Below are positions 20,106 to 44,598 of a DNA stretch of 64,000 bases, piece by piece. This DNA comes from Halichondria panicea (taxonomy: Eukaryota; Porifera; Demospongiae; Suberitida; Halichondriidae). Location: the NCBI RefSeq assembly GCF_963675165.1, contig NC_087389.1, positions 3,470,830 to 3,534,829 on the forward strand, read 5' to 3'. The notes below the pieces were generated by a model. It was not told the DNA's origin, did no database searches, and saw only the letters and a program-made list of their open reading frames with translations. The translations under genes and the position numbers were made by a program. Positions within the stretch are counted from its first letter, which is position 1; each line of letters begins with the position of its first letter.

Positions 20106-20146
20106 ATACAAATCTATGAAACATGAAACAAACTAGTATTTTAATA

Positions 20147-23100
20147 CTAAGTAGAGTCAAGTGAGCACAAGTGCTGGCAAATATCAATTGCTAGTTGGCC
20201 TTCGTTGGCATTCAGTACTATCTCAATGAGTGCTCTGTAGGTGGCAGCAAAGGGGTTGCGCTTTCTCCACAACCTCAAAGCCTCAGCCACGGCACTTTGT
20301 GTGCTTCTTTTTACTGACAGGAGGTTTGTTACGTCTCTTTGCTGGCTTTGGGTTAGTCCCAAGGGAATCATGTAGTCTTCCACATTACCAAAGTGATCGG
20401 AAAGTCCGAGCATGTCTTTTTCATCAATTTGTCCATCAAGTTGAGAGTCGGTCACTTTAGTACGCTCCTTCAGTTCTTCAACAGTCAGTGTCCTCAGTCC
20501 ACCAGTTCCTATGCCACATTTATCATGAGTAGAAGTATTACAAGACAGAGCTATACTATAATAATTTACCTGGTGTTTCTGGGCTATTTTGACAGATCTG
20601 CAGATCAAAAAATATAATATTGTGTTGCTAATAGTCACCAGCACGTATAACATTTATTTCACATACCAAGAGTAGATACTCTTATCTACTCTTGCACATA
20701 CCTATAGATTCCCACAACACAATACAATTCGTGCATACATGATTGTATCTACCTATATACATATAACTTACTTGCTCTTGTAGAATAACATCAACTTTTT
20801 CACTGCTATCTCCACTTCCTTTCCATTCCTCGAAACACTTAGGACATGCACCAACAGGAACTTCGATTTTAGGCTCATTGTCGTCAAAAGCCACAAATGT
20901 GAAGACAGACGGTTGAGGACAGTGACATAGCAGCATTGGGCCAGCACGATACTTCAAGCCTTGAAATCCACTCTCTTGGCATATCCTCTTGAGGTACTCA
21001 TCATGAATGAGCTGGATACATTCTGAAGGTTTCTTTCCCTTTAATACCCTGCATGTATTTGTAGTGGTTGTGAACATGGTTCAGATATGGGCAAATATTT
21101 GTAACAATTGTGACTAAGTTTAGTACATGTAGGTTGACTTATAGGCTTACCTCACAGAAATCTTTATTCTATGCTGAAGAACTTCCAGTTGAACTTTCCA
21201 TTTACAGTCATGAACCATATCAAAGCAACACAAGAAGCGAGAAACACGACTTCTCCTACGATGCTTTTGAGCTGCTGCCATCAACATGCATACCAAACGG
21301 TGATACACTTCCATAGGTAGAAACTTTTCAAAGTCGAAATAAAATTCCATCCAGGGAATGGTGCTTTGAGCTACCTCTTCGATCATGTCATCTTGAAGCT
21401 CCGGTAGCATTGAAGGGATAACAAAGCATTTGTTGGTTGGACTATCACTGTGACAGCTGGCGGAATCGGCCTGGGAATCGTTACCAGATGTCGGATGAAT
21501 CAGACAATAGGCTTGTAGAATTACACTCAGTGTTGTAGCGTCAACTATATCAGACTTGAGAATTTGTTGACACAATCTTTCGAGAACGGCAAAAGAGATT
21601 ATACCACTCTGTAAATTTCGTTCTTCTTTCCCTGAGAGAATATTGTCACTATCTTTGGATAACTCCATGATAATCTTCATGATTTCAATTAACATTTTCG
21701 GATCGATTATCACCAACTCCTTAATCTTTTCGGCATCCTTTTCACTTAAAAGCAGCTTGGACACGCGATCTGGAAGATACAAGAGAGTACACACATTACT
21801 TATTGTAAAAAGTAAATTCTGAAAGTGTGTATCAATGCAGCCACATAAACAAGTGATGGGGGGGGGGGTTATGCTTTAAGAACCACATCATACAGTACAT
21901 GCAAAAAACGTACCGAGAAGAATTATCTCCCCAACATCATGAAAGAATTCCAGGGCATTAGTGGGGTGTGGAACACCTTTGCGCTCAGCAATTTTAATCA
22001 TTTCATTCTTTCGACAGCACCTCTCAATTTCTCCTTTCTTCTTTTCTCGTTTGATGTCATTTTTCATCTCTTTCAGTTTACCTTCTAATCGAAGCCAAGA
22101 CAGGGGATATACTTCATTCAAAAACTTCAATTTCTTACTTATACCGTCGAGTGTACTTCGGACTTCTAAGGCTCCACTGTTGATCGGATCAGTCACTGAA
22201 TTTTCTACTGCAATGAAGTATCTTCCGTTAATTTTACAAAGGTGATTTACGCATCTATCATCCTCCACGAGCACTTTTCGTACCTCCTTATTGATTTCTT
22301 TCAGTTGATCCTGTGTGATTTCTTCTTTGCCAATTCCAGGATTGCGGTGAGTGCCTACAAGTACTACTCTTCTCTGATACTTGTCTTCTGTTTCTTCATT
22401 CTCATTTGGTTCCGGTGGAGAGATGTGTGCATGAATCGAATGCAACCAGTACCGAACTTCCTCCATTGGATTGGGTTGGAAATTTGGTTGAAGCAGATAT
22501 TCCCGCATATCTTGCAAATTGAACACCACAATGTACATGGATCGTCTCCTGATGAAGCAGTGATGCATTGGTCGGTAGTTTTCTTGGCCAGCGAAATCCA
22601 GGACATTCAGTATAAGGGTTGGCTTTGTATCCTTCATCAGATGTTTCCGGTTTTTAAATGCATTGTTGACGATTTTAGCTTCTAACCGACTGCATACACT
22701 GATACTTCGCTCAGGGGGTACGATTTTAGTAGACACAGGTAAAGGTTGGGAAACAGACTTTTTGACTTGGGAAACTTTGGGGACTTGTGGTTTTGATGGA
22801 GGCTTGGGAGTAAATTCAATTTTCTCTGGCGCTATCAATGTGTTAGCTGCACTTGAATTGAGAACTGGAGGTGGTGAGGGAGAATTTTCTACTGGTGCCA
22901 GTTTCACTTGTTGGTCAGTAGGAGTGTTCGATGGTCGAGGATCACTCGAAAGAAATGAGTACGAGTCTAAAATTGGATCACGTTCCTTCCGCAAATTTAT
23001 TTTAGGAACCAGAGGCTTCGTTTCTTTGTTGATTTTCGTGTTAATATCCTCTATTCTTCGGAGAAGCTCACCCAAAGATTTTTCTTGAAACTTCTGAGAA

Positions 23101-26100
23101 GCTGCTTGCTTTTTCACTTCCTCTGGAAGCCCTTTGATAATAGCCAATGCATGCATTTCATCTCTCTCTCTTTGCTGGTCTCCCTCGCTTGTTTCAGACC
23201 ACTGCATTGTGACTGCTCGAGAATCGACTGTATCCACTTCATTATTGTCAATGCCACGAGTTGATTTTTGGTTCGGATCAAATTCTTTCCCAACGATCAG
23301 TTTATAGAGACTTGTCTTGCCTTTGCGTGCTTCCCCGAGAAACAACAGACCACATCGAGGAATTTTTTTCTTCCCTTGTCTTAACGCTTGCTTGTAACTT
23401 TCGATGAAAACGGATCCACGCTTCACAATCTCGGGGGGAATAACTGCTCATGTGTGTGTGTTTGAGAAAAAGAAGACACTATCAAACATGCACAATACTT
23501 TAAGCACTAGGCTATCATCAGAGGTACATGTACATGCACATTTTCCACGTGGGAAAAATGACTTATATCAAATATGCGCAATGCCGCCCAAACCCAACTG
23601 TACGTTCTAAGCATTCACAAAAGCATGTGCGATATACTGCACAGGTCAGACATAGTGATATCAAACAAACTCACTGTCTTCGGGTTCCACATCCCTAGGA
23701 GACTGACCAGCCTATAAAATGATAAGAGAATATAATTATATATTTTTAATTGTCAGCCAAACATGCATGTGCATCAATAACTGAACCAGTGAATAAACCA
23801 AATATTATACATGTAGGAGACACACCTGGTTCTTCTCTTCGTGGAGAGCTTTACCATGTTCAGTTGCGAGAATAACCTTTTCTACTCTCTCACTTGACTT
23901 TGCTCGTGCTACATGGAGGACTGTGTTTCCCTAAAATTAAAATAGCATGGATTTGAAGCACACCAGTAGGTCTGTATAGTACAAACATACATGTATGTGT
24001 GTACAGATGTAGCTCGTACAAAATTGATGTATACTTTTGCCCTTGGGCATTACATTACATTGCTCCAGTGCAATATTTACCATGTTGCACGAGGGCGCCT
24101 TGCACAATGTTTTTTTTAATTATTACACACCATTATGTCCTTCCGATCAGCTTTGCACCCCTTGTCTAAGAGAGCCTTTGCGATCTCTGCTGAGTCATGA
24201 ATAGCTGCGATATGGAGAGCACTCTTCTCTCCTGTTCTCTCTCCATCATCACTGCTTTCCTCAACAAAGTCCGACACATCCACATCTGACCGCCCAACCA
24301 GGTAATTCGCTGCATCCACTTTCTGATACTCACATGCTGTCAGAAAAGGGGAGTATCCAGCCTGAAAGAAAAGAACGGAATACTATAAATTGCCAATCCC
24401 TGTATAAGCACTGCAAATGCTTTAGTACTCCCCATACACATCCTCACCTTCGTTTTCTGCTTGAGAAGGTCAGACTTGTCCTCATCACTGATCACTGTCA
24501 TATTTTCCAACAGCCATTCGGTGAGATTAGGGCTCTTGCGATTAGAGCAAACATAGTGGATTATATTCCAGCCAATCTGGGGAGAAGTACATTGTAATGG
24601 ACAGTATTATTGTTTAAACAGTATTATTGTTTAAAGTGAAGTACACTATGATTATCTACGGTGGCCCTAAAGGTCACTCAGTACCGTCTTTGTTCTAATT
24701 ACAGCACCAAAACAAATCTGGAAATGGTCCACATTTGGAACGACAAAAGATTATTATTGAGGAGTGGTTCTTAGAATAAGGTGGAGCTAACAAAAAAAAA
24801 AAAAAGAAATATTCAAACACAGTGACAGATTGCTTCGAATATAGCAGTTTCAAGACCTCAAACGTTTATGATTTAGCTATATCTACACTCAAAGTAGTAT
24901 TCTTTCTATCAAATGTGTATACCGTATATCTTCTAGTTTATCGGACACTTCTAATTACCCCGGACACTCTTTTGGGCAATTTTCGTTGTTCTAATACAAC
25001 GGACACTCCAGTGCTTTAATATTACATTTGTTCTAAATATCCGGACAATACTTTGAAAAGTTGAGTTACATTCACCATTCACAGACGGCAAGTAAGACAA
25101 GACTTAGAGTGCTGCAGTTAGATAGCTTTGAGTAGCTAGTTTTAGATAGCTAGTGCAACTATTCAGTCGCACACTGGTCTATTAAACTTAGCTAGCTCGC
25201 ATGCAGCTGCTTGCTTGTTCTAATTATTCCGGACACTTCGCATGCTGTATAAAAATCTGTTCCAATTATACCCGGACAATTTCCAAAATAATTATTTTTT
25301 GCTGTCCGATAAATTAGAAGATATACGGTACATATCATCAACAGCAGCATTTAACTGAGCATGGCTTGCAGAGTATGTGCTTGAAGCTATGCTAACTGTA
25401 TTTATAACGAAAGGTTGTTAGTTATGGTCGTGTAAACTAATTAACTAAGCACCACAATAAAATAATGGAAATGGTTCATAAATAGAACAAAAAATAAATA
25501 GAAACTGCGAGTTGGTTGTAGTTAGAAAAAAGACGGTAGTTCTGTTCTCAACTTGGTGTTCTGCACTTGAGCTTCACTAGTTAGTGTTCTCAACTTCGTG
25601 TTCTGTACTTGAGCTTTGTTAGTTAAGTCTTCAATAGTTTACGACCTTTGACCCATGTGTGTGGTTTGTTGGTAACCGAGAATAGTTAGCTGACCAGCGA
25701 CTAAGAAGAGATGTTATTGCTTCTCATGTAACTATATATAGTGAACCTGTAGATCTATCTGGTATTCATTGTGCAACCTGATACAACTTCACCATGCAGT
25801 CAAATTTTGAATAGATATTGAGCTGCTCTCAAATTGTCATGTTTCACTAACTTCACTAGCCTCCTTCACTGGCCTCCCCTGGCCTGCTACTGACTGCTTG
25901 CGCATACGCAAAATTATTGGATATTTTCCCTCGTAGAATGTCCTATAATACTGAATTTATCGGAGAAAAAATCCTGACGAAGAATGTACTGATTATTAAA
26001 AGTCATACCAAGAGTTCCTAATTAACTCTTGGTCATACCATAGATTGAGTAGTTAACAAGGATTGGAAACGGGATCACGTGCGGTGATGGTGTTGATTGA

Positions 26101-29100
26101 AAAACATGTGTTGCTGATTTCAAGTATCAACTACGCTAATTAATTTATGTGTTTATTTGTACCTCTATGCAGAGGTGAAGAGGTTATAATTTCACAATTT
26201 TTAGTTATAGGCCAAGCATAGGAATAGGTTAATCGTAATGTCTTATTTCTATGACCTGAATGCATTCTTGTGAGAAGTTACACCTTGCTAGGTAAACGTT
26301 GAACATGTCGACCGTTTGTGTATGCAGATATGCCTTAAAGACCCAAATTCCAACATCATCAGGCAAATACAAGAAAGAAATAACTTCAGAAAGATTATGG
26401 GATCCCTATATAAGTTAAAAAGTCATAAAGAACAAGAAAGTTTTTTCGTAGTTTTGTCCATACAAGCTTCATTTCAGTTTATATTTCACAAAAAATGTCA
26501 TAAATATCACAATAATAATGGCCAATAGACAGTTGATACTTCCAAATGGCCAACAGGCATAATAATATATAATTTTGTCTTTATAGAGCCTATAGTGTCT
26601 TAGGTGAGATCCAGAGGAGAGTTTTGCTCAATCTGGCTGATGCTACAAGCTCTCCCCTACAGCTAGCCTCGACCCCAGGCCGATCTGTCTCCAATTGAAC
26701 GCTAGGTCGCCTACTAGGCCTGGTATTGATTGTATTTGGGCGTGATCTGGGCGTGGTTTTTTAATACATTGACTCTGTGGTACAACAAAAAATGAATCCT
26801 CCAACAGTGGTCTTCAACAACAGCCTCTGGGGCAGTATACAGCAGGAAATACTTCCCAGAAGACACTTCTTTGGCAGTGGCAACCAAATATTTGTCGATT
26901 TATTTATTGCTACTGAGGATGGCAGCAGAAACACCTCTATTGTTTAGACTCCTGACCTGGTCAATCATGAGTCTCATGATGAGAGATACAAGGGGAGAGA
27001 CAATTAACAAGAACAACACTTTTGTCAACAGGAGGAGCCTTGGTCCTACCTAGCTTGTAGTCCATTAAAAAGGGTAGCAACTGATATAGCAGAGAGACTT
27101 GCCATACCCCGTTGGGAACCAGATAAACACGTCCCTTCCCTCAAACAGGAGATTGAGAGCCTGGGCCTGTTCTGCCATGAGAGTGAGGCCATCTTGCTTC
27201 AAACAAGACAACGCGTTGCATGCCATAGCTAGCTAGCTATAAATTGAGAACATGACACGGAGCTACATTACTGTAACTTTTACGGGAGTAAAATGCCTCT
27301 ACGTACACCTTTAGTATTACAGAAAAAAAGCAGGAAACAAAGTGTGAAGAATCTCTGCTTTTGTATCCGGTTCCTGCCACGCCCAGATACAATCAATACC
27401 AGGCCGTATTTTTCAACTTCGTTCTATTAAAAAAAAATTGGCCTGGGACTGAGGCTACCCTACAGCATGTATGCAGGAACGATCACATTTGCTGCTCATC
27501 AGCCCTGTCTTCTGTCTTTTGCTACTCATAGCCAGCCACCTTCGGTATAGCCTCGATTCAAGCCTGGTGGCCTGGTTTCGAGGCCTGATCATATACATGA
27601 CGTCAACTGAAACACGGATGGTTTCATCCGGTTCTATTGCATTTCCAATCCCTCTCCCTCCTTAATCTATGGTACAAATAAGGTTTACATTCCATTGGTC
27701 TGGCACATTCCATTGTGAAATGACCTCAAGACAAGAGTGCTCAGACCCTTTCTTAGGAGGGGGCTGATCCATGAGACTAATATCAATGGTGGATCTAGCC
27801 TCGTTCCCAGGCCGATCGAGTCGACCTAGCGTTCAATTGGAGACGGATCGGCCTGGGAACGAGGCAATGGTGGATCTAGATACTGCCAAACAAAAATGAC
27901 TTGATAGAACCACACGCAAATATCTGACCTTGTTGTTCTGTCTTCAGATTAATGTTTTCTAAGCTTCAGGGAAGAAAAGCTTCAGCTAAGAGGCATTCCA
28001 ATCGATTCTAATAATGGTAAACGGGATGCTGACTGCTAGTACACGAATATAAATGTCACGGAAGTGAACGAGAATACATTCGTCAGAATCTGACGAACGA
28101 CTGACGCATGCGCAGACAGGCCTAGTTGTTTGCCTAACCGTTATAAAAGCGAAAACTCAGCCTGGGATCGAGGCTATGCAAGGCTCTGCTGATGCAGCCA
28201 TTATTTTAGACATAGACTTTTGGCATCGATTGTTTTTAACAATAATCATTCGATCGTTTACCCACTCCTTGAGTTTGCATGCAGCAAAACAAAAATGTTC
28301 ATCATGATATAATAATGTGTATATATATGTTATGTATAGTTTTGGTACCTCCACCGAGGCATCAGCACCCGCGGTGCTTTCATTATTATATCAGTACCAG
28401 GTCATAAAACTATAATTTTGTGCTTGTTATACTCATCATACTATTATATGATGTGGTTGTCTTTGTTTGCTCCAGCTTTCAATCCCAAGTCAAGTGTATA
28501 TGTAAGGAACAAGTTTAAGAAGAAATTGGCTCGATTTGAAGAACAGTGTAGTATCATCTTGTACCTCAGTTCACGAATGAAGCAAGGGTACAAAGAACCA
28601 GTCAGCAGGTCTATTGATTTCGATTTCAAGATGAACACATTTCTCAAGCTAAAGACCAGGGCAACTTCACTACAGACTGTATGATACTGTGTTAACTACA
28701 ATAATTATGCTATACTATAATTTTAGCGTGGAGTGAAATTAATTACCTCAGTAGTCAGTACGTTAACTCATGCTCAAAACTAGAAGCAGGTGCAGCCCTA
28801 GTACTAGCTTCTCATTTCACCCTTAGATTGCACGATCATAAATTTTATAAAAAAGGCAAACATAATAACATTTTACATAAGAAAAATGTTATGCTTAATC
28901 TATGGTCATACATAGAGCTATATAGCTAGCTAGCTAGCTAGAGACAGAGCTGTAGGTTGTTGTACAGCTATTTTCTTTCTGATAGAGTCAGCAGCAGTTC
29001 AGAGGAGGGAGGACACGATTAACCTTAGCTAATAATTAGCTAATTATCACGACCTTTTAATGAAATTCTTTGAACGATTCGTCTTTTATTCTTTATAACT

Positions 29101-32100
29101 CTACATGTTGGACACAGAGTAGAGCTAGAGCTAGAGCAAAGTACATGAAGTAAGCGTAATCATAGAAGTTCTCCTACTGGAGATACTCCTATATGGCCAA
29201 GTTGCTAGGACGTGAAGATAATAGGACCCCTATAAGAAGCACCCAAGTACTCCTATCTCCAAGATCCCTGTGAGAAGCATCCCGGGCACTCTGATCTTGT
29301 CTCTGTGAGAAGCACTCCTGATCCTGTCTCCAGAATCCCTATGAGGAGCACCCCAGGTACTCCTGTCTCCAAAATTCCTGTGAGAAGCACCCCAGGCACT
29401 CCTGTCTCTGTGATAATTAAAGCTGCAACATGGAATTGTTTACTTCAGAACGTCTCCAACATGAAGAACATCAATGGCACTAACAGTCTCAGCTTCTAGC
29501 ACCCCTTTATTTTTGTAGTTTGCTCTGTGCCTGCACGAATTGCCTGTCACCCCTACTACAGTACAGTTTTGTGTGTCCCAATATGTAGAGGTTATAAAGA
29601 AAGAAAAGACGAATCGTTCATCATTAAAAGGTCGTAATAATTAGCTAATTATTAGCTAAGGTTAATCCTGTCCTCCCTCTTCTAATAGACTTTCACCAAA
29701 GTTAGTATTTGATGGGCGTAGCCTGTTCATTAGGCTAGTGTTACTTTCACTCCGTTCAGACGATTGTCATCCACACTGTTGCAGGCTGTGAGTCTTTTGT
29801 TAGCATAGCAGGCTACGGGTAGCTATCAGCTCTTTCTCAGATGGGCTAGAAACTTTCAATCGAAATTCCTATCTACTTCCTTTAATCCACTTCCGTTCAT
29901 TGTGACGTCGTTGTTTTACTGAGCATACACGTTGTTATCCTGCGTTAGCCGGTATCTGGCTAATGGTTAGCGCATGCGCAAGCAGTCGATACCAGGGCCA
30001 TGCACTGTTCGAGGAAGTGCGGCCTGGGATCGAGGCTATAACTTCAACATGATTTTAATGCAGAACATGAATATTATTATAATTTATGGACTGTATTTCT
30101 GTACAACTTGTCTTGTATGTAGCTCTAGTTTTTCATATTATACTGCAGTCCTTATTATAACGGTCGGCAGACGGCCCCTTTGCCGACCATTTAGTGCATG
30201 TGACCGGTCAATTTGCCATGTGCTCTGACAAATTGGCCGGACAATATTTTAGTGCTAGTACTAGTTCTGAGAAGGAGCAGAGGCATCTAGTTAGTATAGC
30301 TACTTTTGAAAGATGAAAACAGAAGAAATGACTGTGCCAAGCAGCATAGAAGAACCATCTTGTTGAGTCACTCAAGGAAAAATATTTGTAAGCATTTTGA
30401 TGGATGGCTCCGCCAGCTATATGTCAAGCCATTAGAGTATCAGGGATGAAAATAAGTATTTTATCACTGTGTCAAGTCATTTTCAATGTTCACCTGCCAC
30501 CAATGAAAGGACCTGACAGCCTGTCGTCATAATTATAATTATGTCTTATTAATTTTTGTTTTGATGTTTATAATCGTAATAATAATTATAGTAGTATAAA
30601 GCACAACTCATAAAAACCCGACACTATTTCTTTGAGCTAAACCAGTCTAAATACAGTTCCTTGTGAGTCCACTGACTGTCTAACTCAAGAGCACCAAAGA
30701 GTAGAAACATGTCTTTCTGGTCTAGCCAGTCATGGAGTCAGGACTGATACTTCTCATAGGAGCACTGCCACTTCTAGTCTGTTTTTTTGATTTGAGCTGC
30801 TTGCATCAATGGCACTGGGATGCATCAGTTTTCTTGAACTAGCTACGTAGATGGTACATGTAGATCTAGTAGCTCTACAAATTATTGCTGATTTAGTTTT
30901 TTTGCACACATGGCAATTTTCTGAGCATGCGCAGTTGTTGTCCGGCCAGATGGCAGTTCATGCAGTACAATAGACGGCCAAGCAGGCTATGTGCTCAGAT
31001 TTTTACCGGTAGCCGGTGGCCGGCTGTTATTTTCATCTCTGAGTATATGGTAGGACATTATGTCCTTTCAATTCTTAATCCTTATAATAAGCACTAGTGC
31101 TGTATACAGCTCGGATCTTGCTATACTTGCGTACTTAGCTAGCTAGCTAGGCCTTAGGCTGCTATTGCATTATCAGTAGCAAGCGCATCTATAGGTCAAA
31201 GGTCACCAACTATCAAAGGCTAAACTAGCAAAGATCAAGTACAGAACACCAAGTTGAGAACACAGCTACTAAGTGACCGACCTTCAGGGCCACCGTAATT
31301 ATCAATTATTATAGTCTTGTATGTTCATTAATTTTAGCAAACACCCAATACAGTTACAATGTACATACATGTAGCCAGGGGGTGGAAAAAGGAGCAATCC
31401 CTTTTTTTGGAACACCAATACTCAGTTCTACTACGTCTTAGACTTTAGCTAGCTAGAAGAAACAGTTACAAGCATGTACGTATACAAACAAAATACGTAC
31501 GTGTGGAGGTTGCTCACATTTGACCACAAAATTATAATGCAATAATGGGTACTCAAGGTTTTTTAAATAAATGGGCGTGGTTTCCGGTCAAACTTTTCCG
31601 CTAGTGCCGCCCGATCTTTTGCTCCCCATTCTAGCTACGCCTCTGCAAGACGATTGCACATATATCGGATGTACATCACACACCGTCGCACCAAAATAAT
31701 ACTTACATGTAGATGGATACATTCACTTACTTTATCTGTTGCCATAAATAGCTCCTTTAGAACATCAGGAAGCAGGGGTGGAAGGTCGCCAATAATGTGA
31801 CGAAGAGTTTTGTCACTACCTTCACTGCAGGCTATGTGGAGGAAGTTGGCTCCCTTCTGCAATGTACAGCAAAATGGACACAGGTACATATGTAAAGGTC
31901 AAGCAAAAAACAGTGTCAGAATGACGTTCATCCGAGTACATAAGTGGAGCTATATACCGTATTACTAGAATATTTTGCGGGTGAAAAACTTTTGCAAATG
32001 AGCTAAATCAGCTGACTCTTTGCGATCTAACAATTGCGATTTGGCAAGGATCGTGTGCATTTACTAGTAATAATTTAGGTTTTGCGATTTTATTGTTGCG

Positions 32101-33930
32101 AATTGATCAACCCTCGCAAAATTCGCATATGTTTGTTACTCGCAGCAAAATATTCTAGTAATACATGTACCGGTACATGTATAAACATGACATAATGACT
32201 ACCTTATTGATCACAGAGTAATCTAAAACATCAGTGTCCTCCAGCTCAGTGACAATGTCCAGATGGTCTCCCTTGACAGCATACATCAATGGAGTCCAAC
32301 CTCTCTGAGAATACACAGTGATGAAATGACATAATTATGGTAGAATATAGCCAATAATTATGTCCAGAGATTGTTTGTACACATCTTCTAACCAACCTTT
32401 TCTTTGGCATTGACAAGGATGGATATATCCGAATCATGCTGCTTGTTAATCCCAAAGCGATTTTGATTGTTTGCCTTATCGAGCAAGAGTTGACAGATCT
32501 CCAGATTCCCAGTGTTACAAGCAATATGAAGAGCATTCAGCCCTTCCTGGAAAATGGAAGTTCGATTGTGTCAAACTTTACTGTGAGCGAAATCAATCAA
32601 TTCACATCAATGACCATTTCCCTCCACGTCAGTGTACTATATGCAACTTAGATTTCTACATAATATACACATCTTTCAAGTTTATAGTAAATTAGCCGTA
32701 CTTCATTATACATTCTCATCATACGAATAATATACATGCACTAAAAAGGTGAACCTTGTTTTTGAAGGCAGCAGATGCTCCCTCGTCCAGCAACAGTCTG
32801 ACTCTGTCTATATCACCTCTTTGACAGGCCAGCATGAGAGGAGAGTGGGACCGGTACTCTGGGTTAACCTTGAATGGGATTTAACATAACAGTAACATAA
32901 CAGTAACAGAGGAGTTGAGGTCAGACCATAACCTTGTGTACATGCATGTACATGTAGGACCGATGCCGATGTATCCTTATACTATAGGCAAATAACTCAA
33001 AGATTATATTGTATTGTGCCTGGATTACAGAGTCCCCTTATTTAGAGTTGATCAGGTGATTATTTAGCGTGGTCATTATCAATGAGACGTGGTATCCACT
33101 TGAGGGGATACACCCACATCATGGGATACAGGTAGCAACTTTTACATGACACAACAACAGCTGTACGTATAATGAAAGAACCACCCAACCTGACAGATAG
33201 CTGAGGTAACGAGCAGGTAAAAACTTGCACTGCAAGTTACCTTGGTGCAGGTTTCTTCTCACTCAAACAGTTGTACTAAATGAAATTACAGTATCATGCA
33301 GGATGAGCTCAAATCGGTGGTTAAATAATTACATGTACGGACAATAAAGGGGCAGGAACTATGCCAGTGAAACAAAAAAGAAAGAAGTATTCTGTCAATA
33401 AATAATTTTATCTTTATCCCCAGAAAAAGGGGTGTATATGCAAACAGGTCCTACATGTAAGGTCACAATGCTAATAGTACTCTAGTGCGGCACTGACATA
33501 AATAACTAACATAAGAGTATCGTAGCACAATTCTGAAGGGACTCCATTTATAAATGAGAACAAATGTAAACTGGCTAGAAGCCTTTAAAAGCTCTTAGTT
33601 TTTGAGCAGATACAGCTGGAACATACACACACACACAAATAGCTTTAATTACTATACAATTTTGGGCTAACTCTTTATGAAGTGCGTAGGTCCTGTCGTG
33701 AAACATACTGTACTGTAGTCCTAGTGACTCACCTGTGCGTGTTTGGAGGGTAGAAAGTCCAGACTTTGTTTTCCCCCTTTCTGTTTGTCTTTCTCATCCA
33801 GTTTCTGTTCTCTGATGACCTCCACTGCTCTATGAATTGCAGTATTGTGTTTACAGTAGACTGCAGTCAATATAATGCCCTGTAGAACGTTTCTGTGCTT
33901 ATCAACACTTATAAATGAGGGTGTTGCCAT
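20147..33930 (-). CDS. Ankyrin-Roc-COR-Death protein, gene A
   Basis: Fourteen exons join in phase to 1335 aa: 33733-33930, 32755-32868, 32397-32546, 32203-32304, 31731-31856, 24448-24576, 24131-24361, 23826-23930, 23675-23711, 21914-23443, 21151-21769, 20772-21048, 20570-20597, 20147-20508. Order: ankyrin repeats (about 67-385; SPLMLACQRGDIDRVRLLLD, GLNALHIACNTGNLEICQLL, SALHIAAIHDSAEIAKALL), Roc GTPase (P-loop GEARKGKTS at 434-442, DFAGQ at 680, THRN at 762), COR (about 908-1206; LVIIDPKMLIEIM) and a C-terminal Death domain (LTVEELKERTKVTDSQL). The layout matches DAPK1 without the kinase and suggests a GTP-regulated signalling scaffold. The start is the first Met, matched by gene B. Intron 5 is 7.15 kb, filled with transposons. 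Confidence 0.88.
24919..25331. repeat. MITE with ACCGTATATCTTCTAG ends
   Basis: Left ACCGTATATCTTCTAGTTTA and right TAAATTAGAAGATATACGGT are inverted copies. CGGACACT and CCGGACAA motifs recur inside. It lies in intron 5 of gene A. Confidence 0.8.
26037..27672. repeat. Inverted pair enclosing the MULE-type MITE
   Basis: CCATAGATTGAG...GGATTGGAAACGGGATCACG at 26038-26082 is mirrored by GCATTTCCAATCCCTCTCC...TTAATCTATGG at 27640-27671. It is the same motif pair as 10113-11608, so probably a second copy of one transposon family carrying a different insertion. Confidence 0.5.
26662..27462. mobile_element. MULE-type MITE with 9-bp target duplication
   Basis: Ends are TAGCCTCGACCCCAGGCCGA and its imperfect complement (GGCCTGGGACTGAGGCTA). 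The 9-bp flank CCCTACAGC occurs on both sides. Inner repeats ACCAGGCC and GGCCTGGT match other copies. The inner 600 bp shows only short ORFs. It is nested inside the 26040-27670 inverted pair. Confidence 0.8.
27793..27870. repeat. Minimal MULE-type MITE
   Basis: A 70-odd bp foldback: TAGCCTCGTTCCCAGGCCGA, a short middle, then CGGCCTGGGAACGAGGC. Flanking copies of ATGGTGGATC (10 bp) lie on both sides. It is the shortest member of the family in the window. Confidence 0.8.
27945..28392. repeat. Compound repeat: MULE-type arm joined to GCACCG-family piece
   Basis: 27945-28175 is an inverted copy of about 16818-17060 (ends GCCTGGGATCGAGGCTA). 28180-28392 is an inverted copy of about 17990-18200. 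The two pieces lie side by side as they do at 16.8-18.2 kb, but with the inner 800 bp missing. Confidence 0.65.
28985..29695. repeat. Long-TIR element with internal tandem repeat
   Basis: Arms of about 100 bp (about 28995-29105 and 29585-29685) are inverted: GGAGGGAGGACACGATTAACC against GGTTAATCCTGTCCTCCC, then AGCTAATAATTAGCTAATTA and AAAAGACGAATCGTTC. Between them a 30-45 bp unit repeats about five times (29200-29410), translating in part as RSTPGTPVSKIP units. It lies in intron 5 of gene A. Confidence 0.65.
29950..30027. repeat. Right end of a MULE-type MITE
   Basis: Carries GCGCATGCGCAAGCAGTCGATACC and ends CGGCCTGGGATCGAGGCTA, like the right arms of the family. I did not find a matching left end. 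Confidence 0.5.
31370..31648. repeat. hAT-like MITE
   Basis: TGTAGCCAGGGGGTGG...GGAGCAA at 31370 faces TTTTGCTCCCCATTCTAGCTACGCCTCTG ending near 31647 as an imperfect inverted repeat. It lies near the 5' side of intron 5 of gene A. Confidence 0.5.
31955..32163. repeat. MITE with TACCGTATTACTAGAAT ends
   Basis: Left TACCGTATTACTAGAATATT and right AATATTCTAGTAATA are inverted copies. TTTGCGAT and ATCGCAAA motifs recur inside. Partial relatives are near 42536-42655, 56540-56655 and 61090-61270. It lies in intron 4 of gene A. Confidence 0.8.
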
Positions 33931-34505
33931 AGTCGAGTCAGTCAGATCAGGATCTCTCAGGAACAATACAGATCGTGATCTACATAGAGTGTACAAGTAA
34001 AGAATATACATGTACACAAGCGTCTCTTGACCAGCTTGGAATAACGTCTTTACACTCATTGGGTACGTAATAACAGGCTAGTATCCACAAAATCTAGCCT
34101 ACCCTTTTTTTAGCTGCAACTGAATAGGATTTGGTTCCTCAGGCTCTAGTTTATAGCCTTGCATAGTAGATAGCTCTTTGATTAGAACTCAAGTTGGGTC
34201 TCACCAAAAATTAGGAACTCCAGCCAAAGTATTGGTTAACGTAACATGGACCAGAACTCCTGATATGATCCTCAGTACTTATTTCTGTCAGAACAGTGCT
34301 AGTACAGCACAAGTACAGCATGCAGCAGAACCAGATACACCGCCCCCTTTTGAGATCTACCCCGGCCCTAGCCTCGATCCCAGCCCCTCTCACTCAATTG
34401 AGTGCGGCCTGGAATCGAGGCTACCCCGCCCCTGCTCTGGCCCAGCCCCTTCCGATCATGTGTACGTCAGAGGTATGTGTACGTGTAGATCTAGCAGATT
34501 TGAGG
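33931..34505. promoter_or_regulatory. Shared intergenic region of genes A and B
   Basis: About 575 bp separate the two divergent start codons, so both promoters must be here or in the first exons' UTRs. It contains a small MULE-type foldback (34368-34424). No TATA box stands out. A bidirectional promoter is inferred from geometry, not shown. Confidence 0.5.
34368..34424. repeat. Minimal MULE-type MITE in the A/B promoter region
   Basis: TAGCCTCGATCCCAGCCCC and CGGCCTGGAATCGAGGCTA flank about 20 bp. The flanks CCCCGGCCC and CCCCGCCCC look like a diverged 9-bp duplication. Confidence 0.7.
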
Positions 34506-37500
34506 ATGGCAGCTCAAGTGAAGGCTAGCAGGTCAAGGCACAGGGACGCCTTGCAGGGTATTATACTGACTGCAGTATACCTCAAGCACAATGATCCCAT
34601 TCACAAAGCAGTGGAGGTCATTAGAGACCAGAGGCTGGATGGAAGGAAACCTTCTAAGGAAGGCCAGAAGGGTGGACTGCAACTTTTGGATTTCTTACCC
34701 CAGAAAGATGCACAAGTGAGTTTATCTAGATGCAACTGCCGACTGCCGTTAATTCAGATAATAAGGTAGTTTGTCAAGTGTGCTATCTAGTTAGTGTGGG
34801 GCATGCAATGCTTTGTAATTTCCACCGTATGGTTATGCTAGCCTCGATTCAAGGCCGATTAAAATACGGCCTGGTACCTATTGCAGGGGTGATAGTGCGC
34901 ATGCGCTTCAAATTACCCAGAATATGGGTAATCGTACTACGAACGTAAAACCTTAGTAAATTATACAGGAAATTAGTCCGTTTACTAAGAATATGTTCCG
35001 TAATACTTTATCTCTATGTGAAGCTGTGGCTTATGCCGTCTATTGCGTTGGTCTAGAAGGCTTGAACACTAGTTTTAAGACAGAAGAGGCTCTCATCTAC
35101 GTCTAGGATGGTCCTATAGCCGGGTTGTCTTCGCGAGTAGCAGTTTGAGGCACCATACACTTCCCATAGCCTGTACAGATCCAAGGTAAGACATCCTGAC
35201 CATACAACCGTATTAGAGGTAGATGAGAGCCTCTTCTGGCTTCAGACTAGTGTGAAAGCCTTCTGGAACAACGCAATAGAGAGCTAAGCTGATGTACAAA
35301 GATAGAAAATAGATGAGAGAAGAAAAAAGGGGATTCCCCAGATTCTGGTGGAATAAACTAACGCATGCGCACTAACACCATGCAATAGGTACCAGGCCGT
35401 ATTTTAATCGGCCTGGAATCGAGGCTAGGTTTATGCATACCCTGTATATTTCCAAATGTCTTTGTACCTGAATATGTATATAATTATTATGCACCACACT
35501 GTATGTCACATGGGACCGCATTCCTGTGGGGATTGTGGTAGTGTGGTACTGAGGTTAGTTTTGCCTATTAAGGTTACGGTATAATTATACTAACTCAAAT
35601 TTGCGTGTGCAATTCAGCTGCAGTAACGGAGTGATGGTCACTTGGCTTCATTTTCTAGCCCGAGGAAATTAAAAGGACAGGGCCGCTCGAAACGTTTTCC
35701 CCGAGAGAGTAAATTGAAACAAAGAGTAGACACAGCCACATGTATTTATCTGTTGTAGGCTAATAAAATAAAATGGCGATGTAGAGTAGCTAGTAATAGG
35801 GATATATTTCTGGCTGCATGTGTACGATCTCCATGAACAGAATCTCTTCGAGTGGCCATCCAGTAACTCTTAATTTAAAGCATCGAATACTGGTCAGAAA
35901 GACAACATTGAAGCTATAATTATGCATCAAGAAAAACTTAGACGTCAGTAGTTTTTTCCAGCTAACCTCAGACCTCTTCAATGGATTTTTACAAGACATG
36001 CAAACTCTGAGCAATCGTTGTTACTGTTCTCTTTTTATTCATGAATAGTTATTGAATGTAAAATAATGTTGTGATAAAATAAATACCGTATAGCGGGTAG
36101 AGTTCGTTAGTACACACTTTCGTATCAACTGCCCAATTCAATGTTTTGTATTTTATTTGCATAGCTCAAAAATTTTGAATTTTCGTATGATATGCTCTAC
36201 AATATGAAAATTGTCCACCCTATGAAAATAACCTGCTATACAGCATTGTATATGAATTATACATGAGCAATTGAATGATTACACTGTAACCCTAGTAGAT
36301 TGTGTGCAAAACTACGAAAACCTGTTAAACGAATGCAATTATACATGTAGTATACTTGTATATAGACGTACAGTACGTACGTATCCAACGTCATAAAGTA
36401 GTAATCACGAATCGTATGATGTCTTCATAATAACATCACCCATTCTCCCCTGGTTCAGGTTGACTCGGACTACAGGTCCCATTCACCCCTCATGCTAGCC
36501 TGTGAGTGCGAACTTCAAGATGGTGTAGACACCCACCAAAAAGGAGACGTAGACAGAGTCAGATTGCTGCTGGACCTAGGAGCATCTGCTGCTTTCAAGA
36601 ACAAGGTACACCGTTGTTAGATTTATTCTGAGCAGATCTACTGTCACATGCAGCTGTTTGATTGTGATGCACTTATTAAATGCTCTGTCTGGTCTTATGC
36701 ATGGTATTTAATGAAATGTTTTTTCCAGGAAGGGCTGAATGCTCTCCACATTGCTTGCAAAACTGGGAACCTGGAGATCTGTCAACTCTTGCTCAAGAAA
36801 GCAAAAGATCAAAATCACTTTGGGGAAAAGAAAACCTTCACCTCCGATTTGTCTATTTTGGTCAATGCCAAAGAAAAGGTACAATTAATGTCACTATTAT
36901 AAACAGGTTATAAATGGGTACTAATTTTAGCGAATTTACCGAATTTGTAAGTAATGCTAAATTATGTCCGCACTAATAATAAAACGCATTTAAAAATTAT
37001 GAATCTCACTAATTTTCTATTACGAAAATGTACTTTTGAGAGTTAGCCCTTTTTTCATCTGTATCTGACTCCCAAACTTTCCATCCAATCATACTTTTCA
37101 TTTTTCGACAAACATTGTGTAAATGAATTTCTTCAAATCCGCCAAAATTAGTACACCCTAAAAACAGTGAAAACGCTAAAATTACTACAATGTACCTGTC
37201 TATAATAGTAACCGGTATTTTGTAGAGGTCAGACATTACATGCATACAGTGCGTACATACGTTACACATAATTATATCTGGCACTACACGTATGATAACC
37301 CTCCCCCAGAGAGGCTGGACTCCATTGATGTATGCTGTTCAGAAAGACCAACTGGAAATTGTTACCGAGCTGGTAGACACTGACGTTCTAGAGTTCTCGA
37401 AGACAAACAAGGTCAGTAATGAGCCATATGATGTAAGAAAAAAAATTCAAAGTATTGGTTCTACAGAAAGGGGCTACATTCCTCCACCTTGCTTGTCGTA

Positions 37501-40500
37501 ACGGCAGTGTCAACACTCTGCAGTACATTATCACACACCCTCACTTAGTATCCAAGAATATGTTCACAGCAACTGATAAGGTTCGTACTACCCTAGAATT
37601 AAAGCTTTATCATGCCTCGGTAATTAAAGCTTTATCATGCCTCAGCGCACATGCACAGCAAGGTACACATAGGGTAGTGTGTGTGTGTGTGTGTGTAATG
37701 CTGATGTAACTGCTCTACCGTAGCCTTGAAATTTGGCTCGTGGATTTGCAAATTTATAAAGCTTATTTCTCGAGTTATGGCTAGTTTTGCTTCTTAGAGG
37801 CCATTGAAGTCACTTTAGTCTCAGTTTAGACTTCTGCGTAGCAAAATCTGTAGCTAGTTGTCTCTGCAGTAGAGCGCTTAGTTGGCGGAGTGATAAAAGA
37901 GCTCCATTAATTGCCAACATAATTATAAGCAGCCATAATTATTGCATCAGTACTGCACATGGCCGCTACCATTTGTTGTTTTGAGCTTTAACTTTTAGCA
38001 TCCCTTTTTTTAGCAACAATTTACGATTGATCATTTCCTACTCAATTCATCATTCCTGCGTGCAAATTCAATTATTCGTTTCCACCAAGGTATCAGCTTC
38101 GGTCGTGTATTATTGGTGGTAGTAAATATTATTTACCGCCTGTTACTAACCTCGTTCCCAGTAGCATTGGTGCTGCGGAAAGTGAGTATTATGCACACGT
38201 ACTTTAGGAAGTTATTTGTAAGCAGCTACTCGATGGTGTGTTGATGTTCATAAACCGTATACTGGAAGTAGAAATTTAGCGTTACAATTGGGGAAAAATG
38301 GCCTGGGAATGAGGCTGCTCACCCCACTCATGCATTAAGACTTTCAAGAGAAAAATAAGGCGAACAAAAAATTATGGTAACATACATAGTAAGGCCTGAA
38401 AAGCAGTGGCGGATCCAGGAATGTTGAGAGGAGGTTCCAAAACAGTTAAAAAAAAGGTCATCACTTTCCTAAGCAATGAGCATGCCCATTAGAGAGCCCT
38501 GCCAACATAATTACAATTGCATGACTAGTAACTACAGATCACGATCATTCAAGCTGAGTTGCTAGCTATAGTAAGTTGATCTCCCAGTGTGTTCTTGTGT
38601 GAAAGGGGGGTCCATGGAACCCATGGAATCCGCCACTGAAAAGATTTAAACAAAATACATGTACCTGTACTGCACATTATGCTTGAATTGCTTGAATTCT
38701 ACTCACAGAAAGGCTGGAACATTCTTCACTATGCCTGCTGTTCTGACTTTGAACAGGACGGTCAGAGTTATGTTCAGTGGCTCTTAGAGACAATTCCTGA
38801 TGAGATTCTCAGTGACGCTGACAAATCAAACCTCCTGTCACAAAAGAATGATGTACGTAACTGGGTGGTTAGGATCATACATATCCTTATTCCATTCATC
38901 AGTATACAATTATAAGATGACTTCCTACACATGTATACATGCGTTAATACAAGAGTTCATTAGGATGAATGAACTCTTGATAGTTATAATGAAAAGCTCT
39001 TGTTGTCGTATATACATGCAGAATTTGATGTATTTGCTGTACGTAGGCTGGCTACTCCCCTCTGCTGACAGCGTGTGAATATCAGAAGGTTGCTGCGGTA
39101 AAGTATCTGGCTGGGCGGTCAGATGTGGATGTGTCAGACTACGTTAAGGAGGATGAGGGAGGGGTAACTGGAGAGAAGAGTGCTCTCCATCTTGCAGCTA
39201 TTCATGACTCAGCAGATATTGCCGGAATCCTCCAAAAGGAGGGATGCAAGATTGATCGAATTGATTCACGGGTTAGTGTGAATCTTTTTTTAGTCTCTTA
39301 ACTCATTTATAAATATCACTGTGAACATGTGTTACTGTAATGTGTGTGCTAGCTACAGTTGTGTACTTACGTAGATATACATGTATGCCGATGCCAAATC
39401 AAATGATAAACATGGATTCTCGTTTCAGGGTAACACGGTTCTACATGTAGCGAAAAGAAAATCTAGTGAGCAAGTGGAGAGAGTCATTCTTGAAACTACA
39501 GCCGGTCAGAAGCTTCTAGAAGAAAAAAATCTGGTATGTACAATTACATGTGAAATCCTTGTATAAATGTAGTGTGTTGAATTTATGCTCCGTCAGTTAA
39601 ACCTTTCCCCCCACACACACAGAGTGACCAGCTGCCCGGGGATGTGAAGCCCCAAGACAGTGAGTGCTCTTTCTTATGTCATTCCGCGCATGCATATTTA
39701 TAAACATAAACTTTTACGTTTACAGTACTTGTACATTCCTACATGTTGAAACATAGCATTATAGTCACTCGCTATTTGTTTTTTACTCATAGTTATTCCT
39801 CCCGAGATTGTGAAACGTGGACCCATTTTTGTTGAGCGTTACATGCGAGCTCTAAGACAAGGGAAGGAGAAAATTCCTCGATGTGGTCTACTGTTTCTTG
39901 GGCAAGAACGCAAAGGCAAGACAAGTCTCTATAAACTGATTGTTGGGAAACAATTTGATCCGGAACAAGATTCGACTCGTGGAATTGACAATAATGAAGT
40001 GGATACAGTCGATTCTCGAGCAGTCACAATGAACTGGTCTGAAAAGAGTGCGGTAGACCAGCAAAGAGAGAGGGATGATTCTCATGCGTTTGCTGTGCTA
40101 AGAGAACTCCCAGATGATGAGCAGCATGATCGATCATTCAAATTTCAACAAAAGACTGAAGAGGAGCTCCTTAGCAGCATTGAGGGTATCAACCGTGATA
40201 TGAAGGCTCACTATAAACGAAAACCCAGGCTACAAGACCTTATAAAAAAAATCTTATCTGGCGATGGCGATGATTTCTTCAATTATAGTGATGATGACTC
40301 TCTTGATGAGATGCCATCAGATCCGATAATTCCAAAATCGCCTGCTACAAAACCTGCTCCGTCTGTTTCAACAACAGTTGAACCCAAGAAAAATGAGGTT
40401 TTTTCCAAACCTTCACCCAAGCCACGAGAGCCCAAAGTTCCCTCACCCCGTCATCCAAAAAAAGCTGTGTCAGATCCACTACCTGAACCTTCTGAGGTTG

Positions 40501-43500
40501 AACCCCCTGCTCCCACACCGTTGGAGCTAATTGTCAGCATACCGGTAAGTACACGTACAGAAGCTAAAAATGTCAATAAGGTCTTGAAAGAAGGAAAGAA
40601 GGATCGAAAAGAGCCTTCTCTTCTACTGAATGTGCTGGATTTTGCTGGACAGAAGAATTATCGACCGATGCATCACTGCTTCATTAGGAGACGATCCATG
40701 TACATTGTGGTGTTCAATTTGCAAGATATGTGCAAATACATTCAGCAAGCTGACTCATGCCAGTCACCACCAAGTCCTGTTGAAGAGATACGATATTGGC
40801 TTCACTCCATTCATGCACACATCTACCCACCTGAATCAAAAGAAAGAGGAATAGATGAACGCCAACGGAGAGTTGTGCTCGTAGGTACTCACCAAAATCC
40901 TGGACAGGATGGTCGAGAAGTTACCGAAGAAGATTTCCGGCAGATTGACAAGTTGTTAGCTGAAGAAATAGTAGCCGATGTTCGATGTGTCGATCACCTC
41001 TGCAAAGTTTCTGGACGATGGTTTATTCCAGTCGAAAACTCACTCAAAGATCCAAGCAAGAGCGGAGCAAGAATGCTTCAAAACACTCTTCATGACATAA
41101 AGAATGGGTTGCAGTTTCTAGAAGAATCTTACCCACTACCCTGGCTACGGTTCGAAGGCAGATTGATTGAAATGAAGAAGACACCCAATCAAAAGAAATG
41201 TCTTCCAGAGAAAGAAGTTGTTGAAATTGCCGAGAGTAAGGGTGTCTCAAATCCTGGCGATGCCCTAGAGTTTTTTCATGACATTGGCGAGATAATTCTT
41301 TTGCGTAAGTTTTGCTCACAGGTATACTGCATGTACATGTGTATATACAAGCCTTTGAGGCAGTATAGTATAGCTTAGAACCTGTGCATTATTTTTACCT
41401 ACTTACATATTAGCAAAAAAATTTGTTTTGCTTGCATGCCATTGAATTTTTCCATCGAGCACTATAGCTACAAAAAGCATATGCTGAAATACATGTAGAC
41501 CCATCAGAACAGTATTATCACTTTTACCATGTAGGTAGAGTGTCTAAGCTTTTTGTTACTGAGGAAGAGTCAAAAAGTATCTCGGATTTAGTGGTCATTG
41601 ATCCAAAATGGCTAATTGGAATCATGCAAATCATCATGGAGCTACCAGAAAATTGCGGGCTTATTACAGGGAGGGAGCAGGAAATGCTAAGACGGCATGG
41701 TGAAATTTCTCTTAATGTGCTCGAGCAGTTATGGGGTGATTCAAAGCATGATATTCTCAAATCGAGTGCAGTCAAAGCTGAAAAACTTGCAGTGGTTTTA
41801 CAAGCATACTGTTTGATTCACTCAGCTGCCAGTTCTGATTCGGTGGATTCTAGTGGCAAGTTGTTCATCATCCCTTCGATGCTCCCCCACATTACAGACG
41901 CCGAAAAGGAAAAGATAGCTCCGAGTCACCTTCCTTGGATTGTATTTTATTTCGACTTCCAAAGGTTTCTTCCTGAGGAAGTATATCACCGTTTGGTTTG
42001 CATGCTGATGGCGGAAGCACAAAGGGCGGGGAGTCGCAGACAGTTTCATTCCCTGTGTTTGTTTGACAGGGTTCACAATTGTAAAATGGTGGTTGAGCTG
42101 GAAGCTCTTCTACACAGGATAAAAATATCTGTGATGTAAGTGTTTTACCGTTTAGATTATATTTTGCAGCAGCTATTTTGCCTCTATATGCACCTTAACC
42201 ACAGTGTATAGACCAACCTGTACATTTTCTAATTCTGTATGCATGCAGTGTGTCTGGAGGAAAGTTGGAGCCTTCGGAGTGTATCAAGCTGGTGCATGAC
42301 AAATACCTCAAGAGGATTTGCCAAGAGAGTGGTCTTCAAGGCTTGAAATATTACGGGGGTCCAATGCTGCCATGTTGCTGTTCTCAACCGTCAGTCTTCA
42401 CATATGTCACATTTGACATTGGCAAAAGTAGTGACCTGACTATTGAATGCCTTCAGTGTTTGAAGCAGTGCGAGGAGAATGAAATGGATGATGAAGTAAG
42501 GTGGTACGAATAAGTTTTAATATCTTATTTGATTGTGGGTGAAAAACCCTTTGCGATCTAACATTTGCATTCTGGCAAGGATCGTGTGTATAGTTTAAAT
42601 GATCAATGCTTGCAAAGTTGGCATGTTAGATGCTCCCAAAACATTCTAGTAATTATGGTAGCTAATTTTTCTTTATCGTTTTTCAGATGAAAAGCCTAGC
42701 TACTCAAGAAACACAGTCAGGTAAAATTCACTGCACTCGATGTAATATTATGTATGCTGCGTAGTCAACAATATGCTATAATAGTCAAGTATTTGCCTTG
42801 CATTTAATCGAACATCACTGGCCACGAGAAGTGTGGAGGTGTCAATAAAGAAGGATAGCTACCGTTACTTTAGTAACATGCAATGTTAAAACGTCTTGAA
42901 TTAGTTATACTTGTGTGCTCATTCCACAGATGACCAACTAAAGACGAGTGGTCCACAACAAACCTCTGCATCCAAACCTGATGCAACCAAACCAGGTACG
43001 CATGCATGACCATGCACATTCTGGGAAGGGAAGAAGTGTATATAGGATTGTCCATAGATATACATGTACACATAATTATATACAGTATTTGATATCAGTT
43101 GATCATGAAGTACGTACAACGTTGTTTAGCGGACCTGTATACTCTATAATTATACCAAGGGCATATAATTATCAGGCATGCAACTCACTATAATTTTGTG
43201 TACAAGGCAAAATGCACCGAGATTGTATACATAGATTCCAGTACGCAACAGCAGTCAACGTTTATGTGTGGGTGGAATGTCTGAAAATAGCTGTGCTGTA
43301 TAGCAGGTACATTTGGCGACTATTTGCCGAATAAAGGTGCACAATTTCAATGTTTTAGCTTGCAATACATGTATTGATATGCATGATCATTAAAAAGTCG
43401 CTAATAATAGTTCAATTGCCTCCTTTGCCATTTTTACCTGCATGCTATACATTGTATGTGGTACACAGGGTTTCATACAGGATTTTTAGCCAAGCGGGAA

Positions 43501-44598
43501 ATGACGACGGTCGTACGCCGTTGAAAATTTGGGGGTCCGGGGGGCAGCCCCTGAGAAAATTTGGCAGAATGATTGTCTAAGGTGCATTTTTGGAGCAAAG
43601 CAGAAAAGTACTCAAATTGACCTCTAGTGTGTGTACAGAGCCTATGGTCCCACTATGTACATGCTCTGCTTATGTTGTAAGGTTTAAATTTCAAAGGGTA
43701 TCATCAGAAGTATCATAATAATAATTGTATACATGCATTTTGTGTATGTAATCTCCTGTCTGAACTCTTGAACTGTACCATGTGCTTGATTGGATATACA
43801 TGTATGCACTCCTGATGTATGTAAGAGGCTTTTTCTCAATTGACTGATACACGTTGAATAATCATTATAGCTACATGTAGATCTATCTGAATCACTGTAC
43901 AATTTGGTATGACATCATTAATTTTTCATATTTCCAGGGGGATTTTGGTCAGGGGGAAATCCCAGGGCGCCCCCCCCCCTGTATGAAACCCTGGTACATG
44001 TATATGAATTTGTATTAGTCTGCATGCACACAGTGTGAGTCCATGCCCTCTCCTGATATACCCCCTTGATTAATTATACCAGTACATTTACATGTATCTG
44101 TTCCCTTGTTTACCAGGTAGTGCTGACAGTGCAACGATAAATGTGACAGCACCCCTACCGACCACACCCTCCTCACACAGCTCTCTTTCAGGTATGAAAT
44201 AACCCAAGTTTGCATACTGAAAATGTGGCAATTTGAATTAACTCACAGGAGCTGGTGGACAACAGACAGTGACCATTGAGGAATTGAAGAAGCATACGAA
44301 AGTAACTGACTCTCAACTTGGTACTAAAATTGAAGATAAGTGTATGTATTCCATTTCGGAATACTTTGAGAATGTAGATGACTATGTGGTGCTACTGAAA
44401 CTAAAGACTTGTGACGAAACAGATGTTAAAGACTTGGCAAAACTTAAGAGCACAAAGAATGCCATGTTCAAAGCCTTGAAACATTGGAGGGATCCCAACC
44501 CCTACACTGCCACTTACGGAGACCTGGTGGAAATATTGTTAGAGGCCAATAAAGGTCATGTTGCTGATAAGATTTGTGAGTTCTGTGCTCGATTATAG
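34506..44598 (+). CDS. Ankyrin-Roc-COR-Death protein, gene B
   Basis: Sixteen exons join in phase to 1372 aa: 34506-34715, 36459-36605, 36729-36878, 37310-37411, 37467-37580, 38709-38852, 39047-39271, 39429-39533, 39623-39659, 39793-41304, 41535-42135, 42249-42495, 42687-42720, 42930-42995, 44117-44191, 44249-44598. The first 12 exons match gene A one for one. Order: ankyrin repeats (LNALHIACKTGNLEICQLLL, GWTPLMYAVQKDQLEIVTEL, SALHLAAIHDSADIAGIL), Roc (P-loop GQERKGKTS at 448-456, DFAGQ at 694, THQN in place of a TKxD-type G4), COR (LVVIDPKWLIGIM) and Death (VTIEELKKHTKVTDSQL). Three small exons before the Death domain encode a Ser/Thr/Pro-rich linker that gene A reduces to one. Exon 2 has an 11-residue insertion relative to gene A. 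Confidence 0.88.
34839..35427. mobile_element. MULE-type MITE, copy 2
   Basis: Complete copy of the repeat at 5193-5732. Arms of about 65 bp run TAGCCTCGATTCAAGGCCGA...GCGCATGCGC and the reverse. GGTTATGC on the left and GGTTTATGC on the right are probably the target duplication. It lies in intron 1 of gene B. Confidence 0.85.
36086..36243. repeat. MITE, TACCGTATAGCGGG family
   Basis: Left TACCGTATAGCGGGTAGAG, right AATAACCTGCTATACAG, with TTCGTA/TACGAAA type inner repeats. It is in intron 1 of gene B. Confidence 0.7.
37605..38130. repeat. Inverted relative of the 17990-18535 repeat
   Basis: Shares, in the opposite orientation, the CATGCCTCGGT start, a GTAGTGTGTGTG tract, the TGGATTTGCAAA segment and the ACCAAGGTATCAGC end. 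A (GT)10 tract lies at about 37676-37696. It occupies intron 5 of gene B. Confidence 0.6.
38150..38317. repeat. Diverged MULE-type MITE
   Basis: Begins AACCTCGTTCCCAGTAGC and ends GGCCTGGGAATGAGGC, with about 130 bp between. It lies in intron 5 of gene B. Confidence 0.6.
38402..38641. repeat. hAT-like MITE
   Basis: Ends CAGTGGCGGATCCAGGAA and CATGGAATCCGCCACTG form an inverted repeat of a type widespread in animal hAT elements. AAAAG-like flanks on both sides may be the 8-bp duplication. It is in intron 5 of gene B. Confidence 0.8.
43466..43996. repeat. MITE with CAGGGTTTCATACAGG ends
   Basis: CAGGGTTTCATACAGGATTT at the left and CCTGTATGAAACCCTGG at the right are inverted. The interior has GGGGGTCCGGGGGGCAGCCCC-like G-rich sequence. 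GGTACA lies beside both ends. It is in the intron between exons 14 and 15 of gene B. Confidence 0.75.

Follow-up and report, generated by a model that had tools for sequence, protein, structure and literature searches.

A head-to-head pair of kinase-less, DAPK1-like Roco–Death genes in the sponge Halichondria panicea

A 64,000-nt stretch of the genome of the sponge Halichondria panicea (contig NC_087389.1, positions 3,470,830 to 3,534,829; this whole stretch is the window, and coordinates are window positions unless a contig is named) contains two genes, A and B, that lie head to head and each encode ankyrin repeats (Ank), a Roc GTPase domain, a COR domain and a Death domain. The pair is real, old and inverted, and its members are kinase-less, DAPK1-like Roco–Death genes, with both the protein type and the arrangement belonging to known kinds. 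A and B are probably GTP-switched, dimerising Death-domain scaffolds of the Roco type, resembling DAPK1 minus its kinase: the basis for this lies in their gene structure, their domains, the intact G1–G3 motifs and the conservation between the copies, to which a predicted Death fold is added.

Gene structure and domain organisation

Both genes were modelled on splice sites that preserve the phase in A and in B alike, and each putative transcript gives one open frame free of frameshifts in which every modelled intron is GT–AG (Table 1). Exons 1–13 correspond one to one between A and B in order and phase; the lengths of exons 1–12 are nearly equal, those of exons 3, 4, 8 and 9 being identical (150, 102, 105 and 37 nt). 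A preceding sequence-only reading had described two paralogous genes in mirror order, about 575 bp apart, with the first 12 exons matching in phase and nearly in length: the spliced models bear this out, and the 13th mini-exon (28 nt in A, 34 nt in B) was found to match as well. The terminal Death exons are again counterparts, with two additional linker exons (14 and 15) ahead of that of B; the short linker exons 13–15 are the least certain parts of the B model. In-frame ATGs also occur upstream (34059/34011 in A, 34320/34458 in B), which leaves the modelled starts putative; these are the inner ones, which the A–B alignment favours. Intron 5 of A (24577-31730) measures 7.15 kb and holds several direct and inverted repeats; the matching B intron spans only 1.1 kb.

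Table 1. Modelled exons of genes A and B and elements of the gap between them.
Feature	Coordinates	Strand	Basis or remark
Gene A, 14 exons, 1335 aa, Ank–Roc–COR–Death	33930→20147	minus	spliced model, complete open reading frame (ORF)
Gene B, 16 exons, 1372 aa, Ank–Roc–COR–linker–Death	34506→44598	plus	spliced model, complete ORF
A exon 1, N-terminal segment	33733..33930	-	78% complementary to B exon 1 over 104 nt
B exon 1, N-terminal segment	34506..34715	+	spliced model; complementarity to A exon 1
A exons 2–8, ankyrin repeats	32868-32755, 32546-32397, 32304-32203, 31856-31731, 24576-24448, 24361-24131, 23930-23826	-	model, Pfam
B exons 2–8, ankyrin repeats	36459-36605, 36729-36878, 37310-37411, 37467-37580, 38709-38852, 39047-39271, 39429-39533	+	model, Pfam
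A exon 9, 37 nt	23675..23711	-	spliced model
B exon 9, 37 nt	39623..39659	+	spliced model
A exon 10, Roc GTPase and start of COR	21914..23443	-	Pfam Roc; motifs
B exon 10, Roc GTPase and start of COR	39793..41304	+	Pfam Roc; motifs
A exon 11, COR	21151..21769	-	55% identical to B exon 11
B exon 11, COR	41535..42135	+	Pfam COR-A spanning exons 10–11
A exon 12, past COR-A, assigned to the end of COR	20772..21048	-	model; no Pfam match of its own
B exon 12, past COR-A, assigned to the end of COR	42249..42495	+	model; no Pfam match of its own
A exon 13, 28-nt linker	20570..20597	-	spliced model
B exons 13–15, linker	42687-42720, 42930-42995, 44117-44191	+	spliced model
A exon 14, terminal, Death domain	20147..20508	-	
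B exon 16, terminal, Death domain	44249..44598	+	finds A's at 48% identity; Pfam Death 18.0 bits
Gap between modelled ATGs, candidate shared promoter	33931–34505	.	575 bp
55-bp hairpin repeat (palindromic, 18-nt arms) within gap	34369–34423	.	genome repeat search

Profile hidden Markov models, which had been proposed as a check of the domains, gave a divided result: ankyrin repeats and Roc were recognised by Pfam in both proteins (Roc with 54.2–57.3 bits in A and 49.5–52.5 bits in B, cut-off 27), COR-A was called in B only, at 35.5 bits barely above its cut-off of 35.3, and Death remained under its cut-off of 22.6 bits in both (15.7 bits in A and that of Table 1 in B). Judged by the 55% identity of the two COR exons, COR follows directly after Roc in A too. 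The Death assignment is made because the predicted fold of the terminal exon matches solved Death domains (a helical-bundle Death fold) and because a Death exon elsewhere in the genome (locus L046), 57% identical to that of A, passes the Pfam cut-off with 25.6 bits. The order Ank–Roc–COR–Death is thus supported by Pfam, COR-exon identity and the predicted Death fold; the predicted structure of the A Roc exon was unusable (predicted local distance difference test score, pLDDT, 38). No kinase, NACHT or NB-ARC domain matched the full A and B models in Pfam at E ≤ 0.1, nor did the Pfam scan return leucine-rich repeats (LRR), and both the absence of the DAPK1 kinase and the likeness to DAPK1 in domain order can be retained from the sequence-only reading. 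Its description of A and B as a sensor pair in the STAND style is unsupported: the P-loop is that of the Roc small-GTPase domain, and the nucleotide switch of Roco proteins is of another class.

Roco proteins form three groups, among which the DAPK1 group is the one that has a Death domain, with its kinase ahead of RocCOR, according to a review (PMC6337361). DAPK1 itself (Roco group 3) shares with A and B the same order of ankyrin, ROC–COR and Death and a similar length (1430 aa vs 1335/1372 aa; PMC12408332), but unlike them possesses an N-terminal calmodulin (CaM)-regulated kinase. The combination of Roc–COR with a Death fold in an early-branching animal has a parallel, by description, in Trichoplax, for which at least 17 ROCO genes are reported, some with CARD or Death domains; the word 'ankyrin' is not in the main text of that paper (PMC4104024). 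In Aplysia, ROCO domains are described in proteins similar to Toll-like receptors (TLR) and MyD88 (PMC9334734): compared by description, these likewise join invertebrate ROCO to innate-immune domains, but are TIR-based. Within the sponge genome (contigs are labelled C), loci L024 (C13:4.73 Mb) and L032 (C5:7.02 Mb) have ankyrin before Roc as do A and B, this being weak and below cut-off in L032, and L024 has a B-like Death exon 2.5 kb past its Roc match, the Death domain being 33–37% identical; in contrast to the pair, the Roc of both loci is not recovered by the A or B Roc exons, and their G4 motif is SHAD, with Asp. The LRRK-type locus L013 (C15) shares only Roc–COR, with LRR before and kinase and propeller after it and no Death match. 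Judged by titles and abstract openings, none of the papers listed in searches for sponge or invertebrate Roco–Death–ankyrin proteins describes this pair.

Divergence of the copies and their head-to-head order

With the large Roc exon of A as query, B is hit at E 2e-155 (57% identity), and with the COR exon of A at E 2e-53. A resemblance of this strength cannot be due to chance and supports the proposal that the genes are inverted paralogues. When the genome was searched (131.46 Mb, 39 contigs), neither the A Roc exon (E ≤ 1e-5) nor the A COR exon (E ≤ 0.001) recovered anything besides itself and B: A and B are therefore a two-gene lineage within a large repertoire. Candidates for a third relative were rejected, as the B Roc exon at E ≤ 1 gave 12 weak partial matches, the best at 1.3e-4 over 56 residues. 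Given that Roc exon identity is only 57%, A and B are not two haplotypes of one gene; both lie on one 6.57-Mb contig, and it seems unlikely from the sequence that they were joined by assembly alone.

Across 1289 codons, synonymous divergence (dS) was 1.41 and non-synonymous divergence (dN) 0.31 by the Nei–Gojobori method (NG86), dS being rough at such depth, and 122 of 215 conserved four-fold sites carry the same base in A and B (26% expected by chance); the conservation of the two copies points to purifying selection. Silent divergence is uneven: dS is 0.30 in the block from G1 to switch I and 0.81 at the COR end, with at least 1.17 in each of the seven remaining blocks. The P-loop region is the best conserved block between A and B, and within A residues 434–481 identical codons were used at 37 of 40 conserved degenerate positions, a level reached in 2 of 5000 shuffles within amino-acid classes. 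The tract of low silent divergence covers A residues 434-490 in exon 10 (about 23336-23166) and may reflect either gene conversion between A and B round the P-loop or constraint on silent sites.

For the head-to-head order, we lean slightly towards the explanation that A and B are simple duplicates with divided or redundant roles, their orientation being a functionless by-product of the inversion in a gene-dense genome. Duplication was not seen beyond the genes: the only blastn match between the flanks (4001–20146 vs 44599–60600) was a single inverted one (15780–16219 / 50321–50676, 68.6%), rejected as an extension of the duplication since it is a high-copy repeat. In Amphimedon, 11,379 head-to-head genes with start sites at most 1 kb apart and a median intergenic distance of 587 bp are given in PMC4773876; because compact sponge genomes are full of such gaps, a spacing of 575 bp, measured here between modelled ATGs, is ordinary and only weak evidence for a special co-regulated pair. 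The persistence of the pairing despite old divergence sits less well with simple duplicates. An obligate hetero-pair, in which one bidirectional promoter would serve both genes and A and B would dimerise via Roc–COR and so join the Death domains of two different proteins, draws on the short distance between the ATGs, on both genes being intact and in mirror order despite far-diverged silent sites, and on A and B being the only members of their lineage found by the exon searches. As spacings of this size are usual where a sponge genome is compact, and as the linker is longer in B and the identity of the Death exons has dropped to 47–48%, we regard an obligate pair as unlikely; the two genes might still share a promoter, and their products might form A–B heterodimers.

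The gap itself contains no TATAAA, has a GC content of 46% and shows a CpG observed/expected ratio of 0.49, not above that of the rest of the window. Its hairpin repeat recurs at least 39 times outside the gap (of 108 candidate places in the genome, 40 were scored), and a 47-nt inverted pair (26666-26712/27819-27865) resembles it by eye. A scan of the gap for sigma-70-type promoters returned 2 sites vs 1.1 in shuffles and was set aside, the model being unsuited to animals, and an inverted repeat round the gap (33795–33898 / 34538–34641) proved to be merely the two first exons. Among the 64 COR-A places of the genome, eight neighbouring pairs lie less than 40 kb apart, all of them same-strand; A/B is absent from this list, which makes it a weak test for other head-to-head Roco pairs.

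Nucleotide-binding motifs and proposed function

The G1 P-loops read GEARKGKT in A and GQERKGKT in B, following the pattern GxxxxGKT; G3 is DFAGQ in both copies, and the switch I sequence STRG is kept together with the switch-I Thr. At G4, THRN (A) and THQN (B) place Asn at the Asp position in both copies; in other G-proteins, exchange of Asp for Asn at G4 changes nucleotide preference. Twenty other loci, mostly drawn from the Roc and COR-A matches of the genome, were subjected to the same motif search: seven have a G4-like motif with Asp (THLD in two, THTD, SHAD in three, TKKD) and the remaining 13 no clear G4 match. A and B also share a 196-aa insert between G2 and G3, of which Pro, Ser, Lys and Glu make up 42–45%; such a long insert is not unique to the pair, since the ORF L031 has ~194 residues from G1 to G3. 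Relative to DAPK1, the G4 Asn and the insert are candidate differences.

Asn at G4 in both copies, set against Asp in seven of the other loci, and the insert could be taken to indicate non-GTPase scaffolds, with a degenerate Roc and only the ankyrin, COR and Death parts acting. We find this improbable: neither the P-loop nor the switch-I Thr nor DFAGQ is disrupted, conservation is highest round the P-loop, most of the compared loci lack a clear G4 themselves, and G4–G5 are variable across Roco generally (PMC6337361).

In the GTP-switched scaffold that we prefer, nucleotide cycling, dimerisation, ligand and pathway are inferred. A single DAPK1-like Roco gene without a kinase would long ago have undergone an inverted duplication that left two intact copies pointing away from each other; the ankyrin repeats of each would bind a partner or ligand, Roc–COR would shift between monomer and dimer according to nucleotide state, and the C-terminal Death domain would recruit an adaptor or enter a Death-domain assembly, leading to cell-death or immune signalling.

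The Death exon and the Roco repertoire of the genome

The surrounding repertoire is large: besides the COR-A places, the Roc profile matches at least 141 places (of 354 candidates, 150 were scored), a number that probably includes Rab- and Ras-like genes, and Pfam Death at least 150 (all 150 scored matched, out of 503 candidates). Pfam Death lies within 8 kb downstream on the same strand at 12/64 COR-A places, as a measure of proximity and not of gene models, and when part of the B-like Death matches is added at least 19/64 have Death within 10 kb. Searching with the B Death exon gave at least 150 places (150 of 679 candidates scored, all at E ≤ 1.7e-12, A and B included), and many of the matches listed are clustered at C13:4.9-6.4 Mb. 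In 28 Death loci that were read (26 distinct places), an AG giving the A/B intron phase is present in all but L025, some of these AGs probably by chance; the exact exon start, AG followed directly by GAGCTGGTGGAC, occurs in 14 of the 28 and in B, with A differing by one change. The Death exon of L046 lies ~1 kb downstream of LRR-coding frames on the same strand and that of L047 follows a frame whose P-loop GTPase-like motifs lack Pfam confirmation, the host gene being assigned by position in both cases.

The Death exon of A is closer to the L041/L046 exon, at the identity given above, than to that of B, and A and B are unpaired in the Death-exon tree, from which four of 30 rows (L044–L047, duplicates or identical) had been excluded beforehand. 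The pairing of A and B is nevertheless not rejected by the approximately unbiased (AU) test (p 0.33 with 26 rows, and again 0.33 with 22 rows after four long-branch rows were dropped), so that a domain swap of the Death exon is not shown. The terminal Death exon might be a genome-wide interchangeable cassette that ends varied sensors (Ank–Roc–COR, LRR and other P-loop GTPase-like proteins) on a shared Death platform, with A and B as a divergent two-subunit input exchanging its P-loop by gene conversion; we regard this broader picture as doubtful.

Further Roco frames were observed: at L018 (C10:4.29 Mb) an open frame of 1269 aa matches Roc once and COR-A twice, a frame length and match pattern seen at two more places on C10, and L013 and L014 (C15:5.136-5.150 Mb) are tandem long open frames of 1667 and 1727 aa with Roc and COR-A. 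In the window, 15780-16219 is a ~430-bp repeat with 1367 candidate places, probably a young family (among 40 scored, full-length matches are 94-100% identical, query included), and 50321-50676 is its diverged inverted copy. At 52993-55255 a Myb/SANT-like frame (+) stands beside a DDE_Tnp_4 transposase frame (-), both long and open, which might be a PIF/Harbinger element. A Cys-to-Ser silicatein active-site pattern occurs at three places in the genome; two translate as CGSSYAFS, one of which (L034) matches the papain family, and this type of signature, a mark of silicatein and hence of demosponges, points to a probable siliceous demosponge.

If the scaffold reading of A and B is true, the pair would add a DAPK1 relative that lacks the kinase, in a sponge whose Death-domain and Roco genes are very numerous. 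It would help to tell whether an ancestral Ank–Roc–COR–Death scaffold acquired the DAPK1 kinase or whether the ancestor had it and lost it. The Death exon, being so widespread, would likewise offer a concrete example, open to testing, of one signalling end that serves many sensors.
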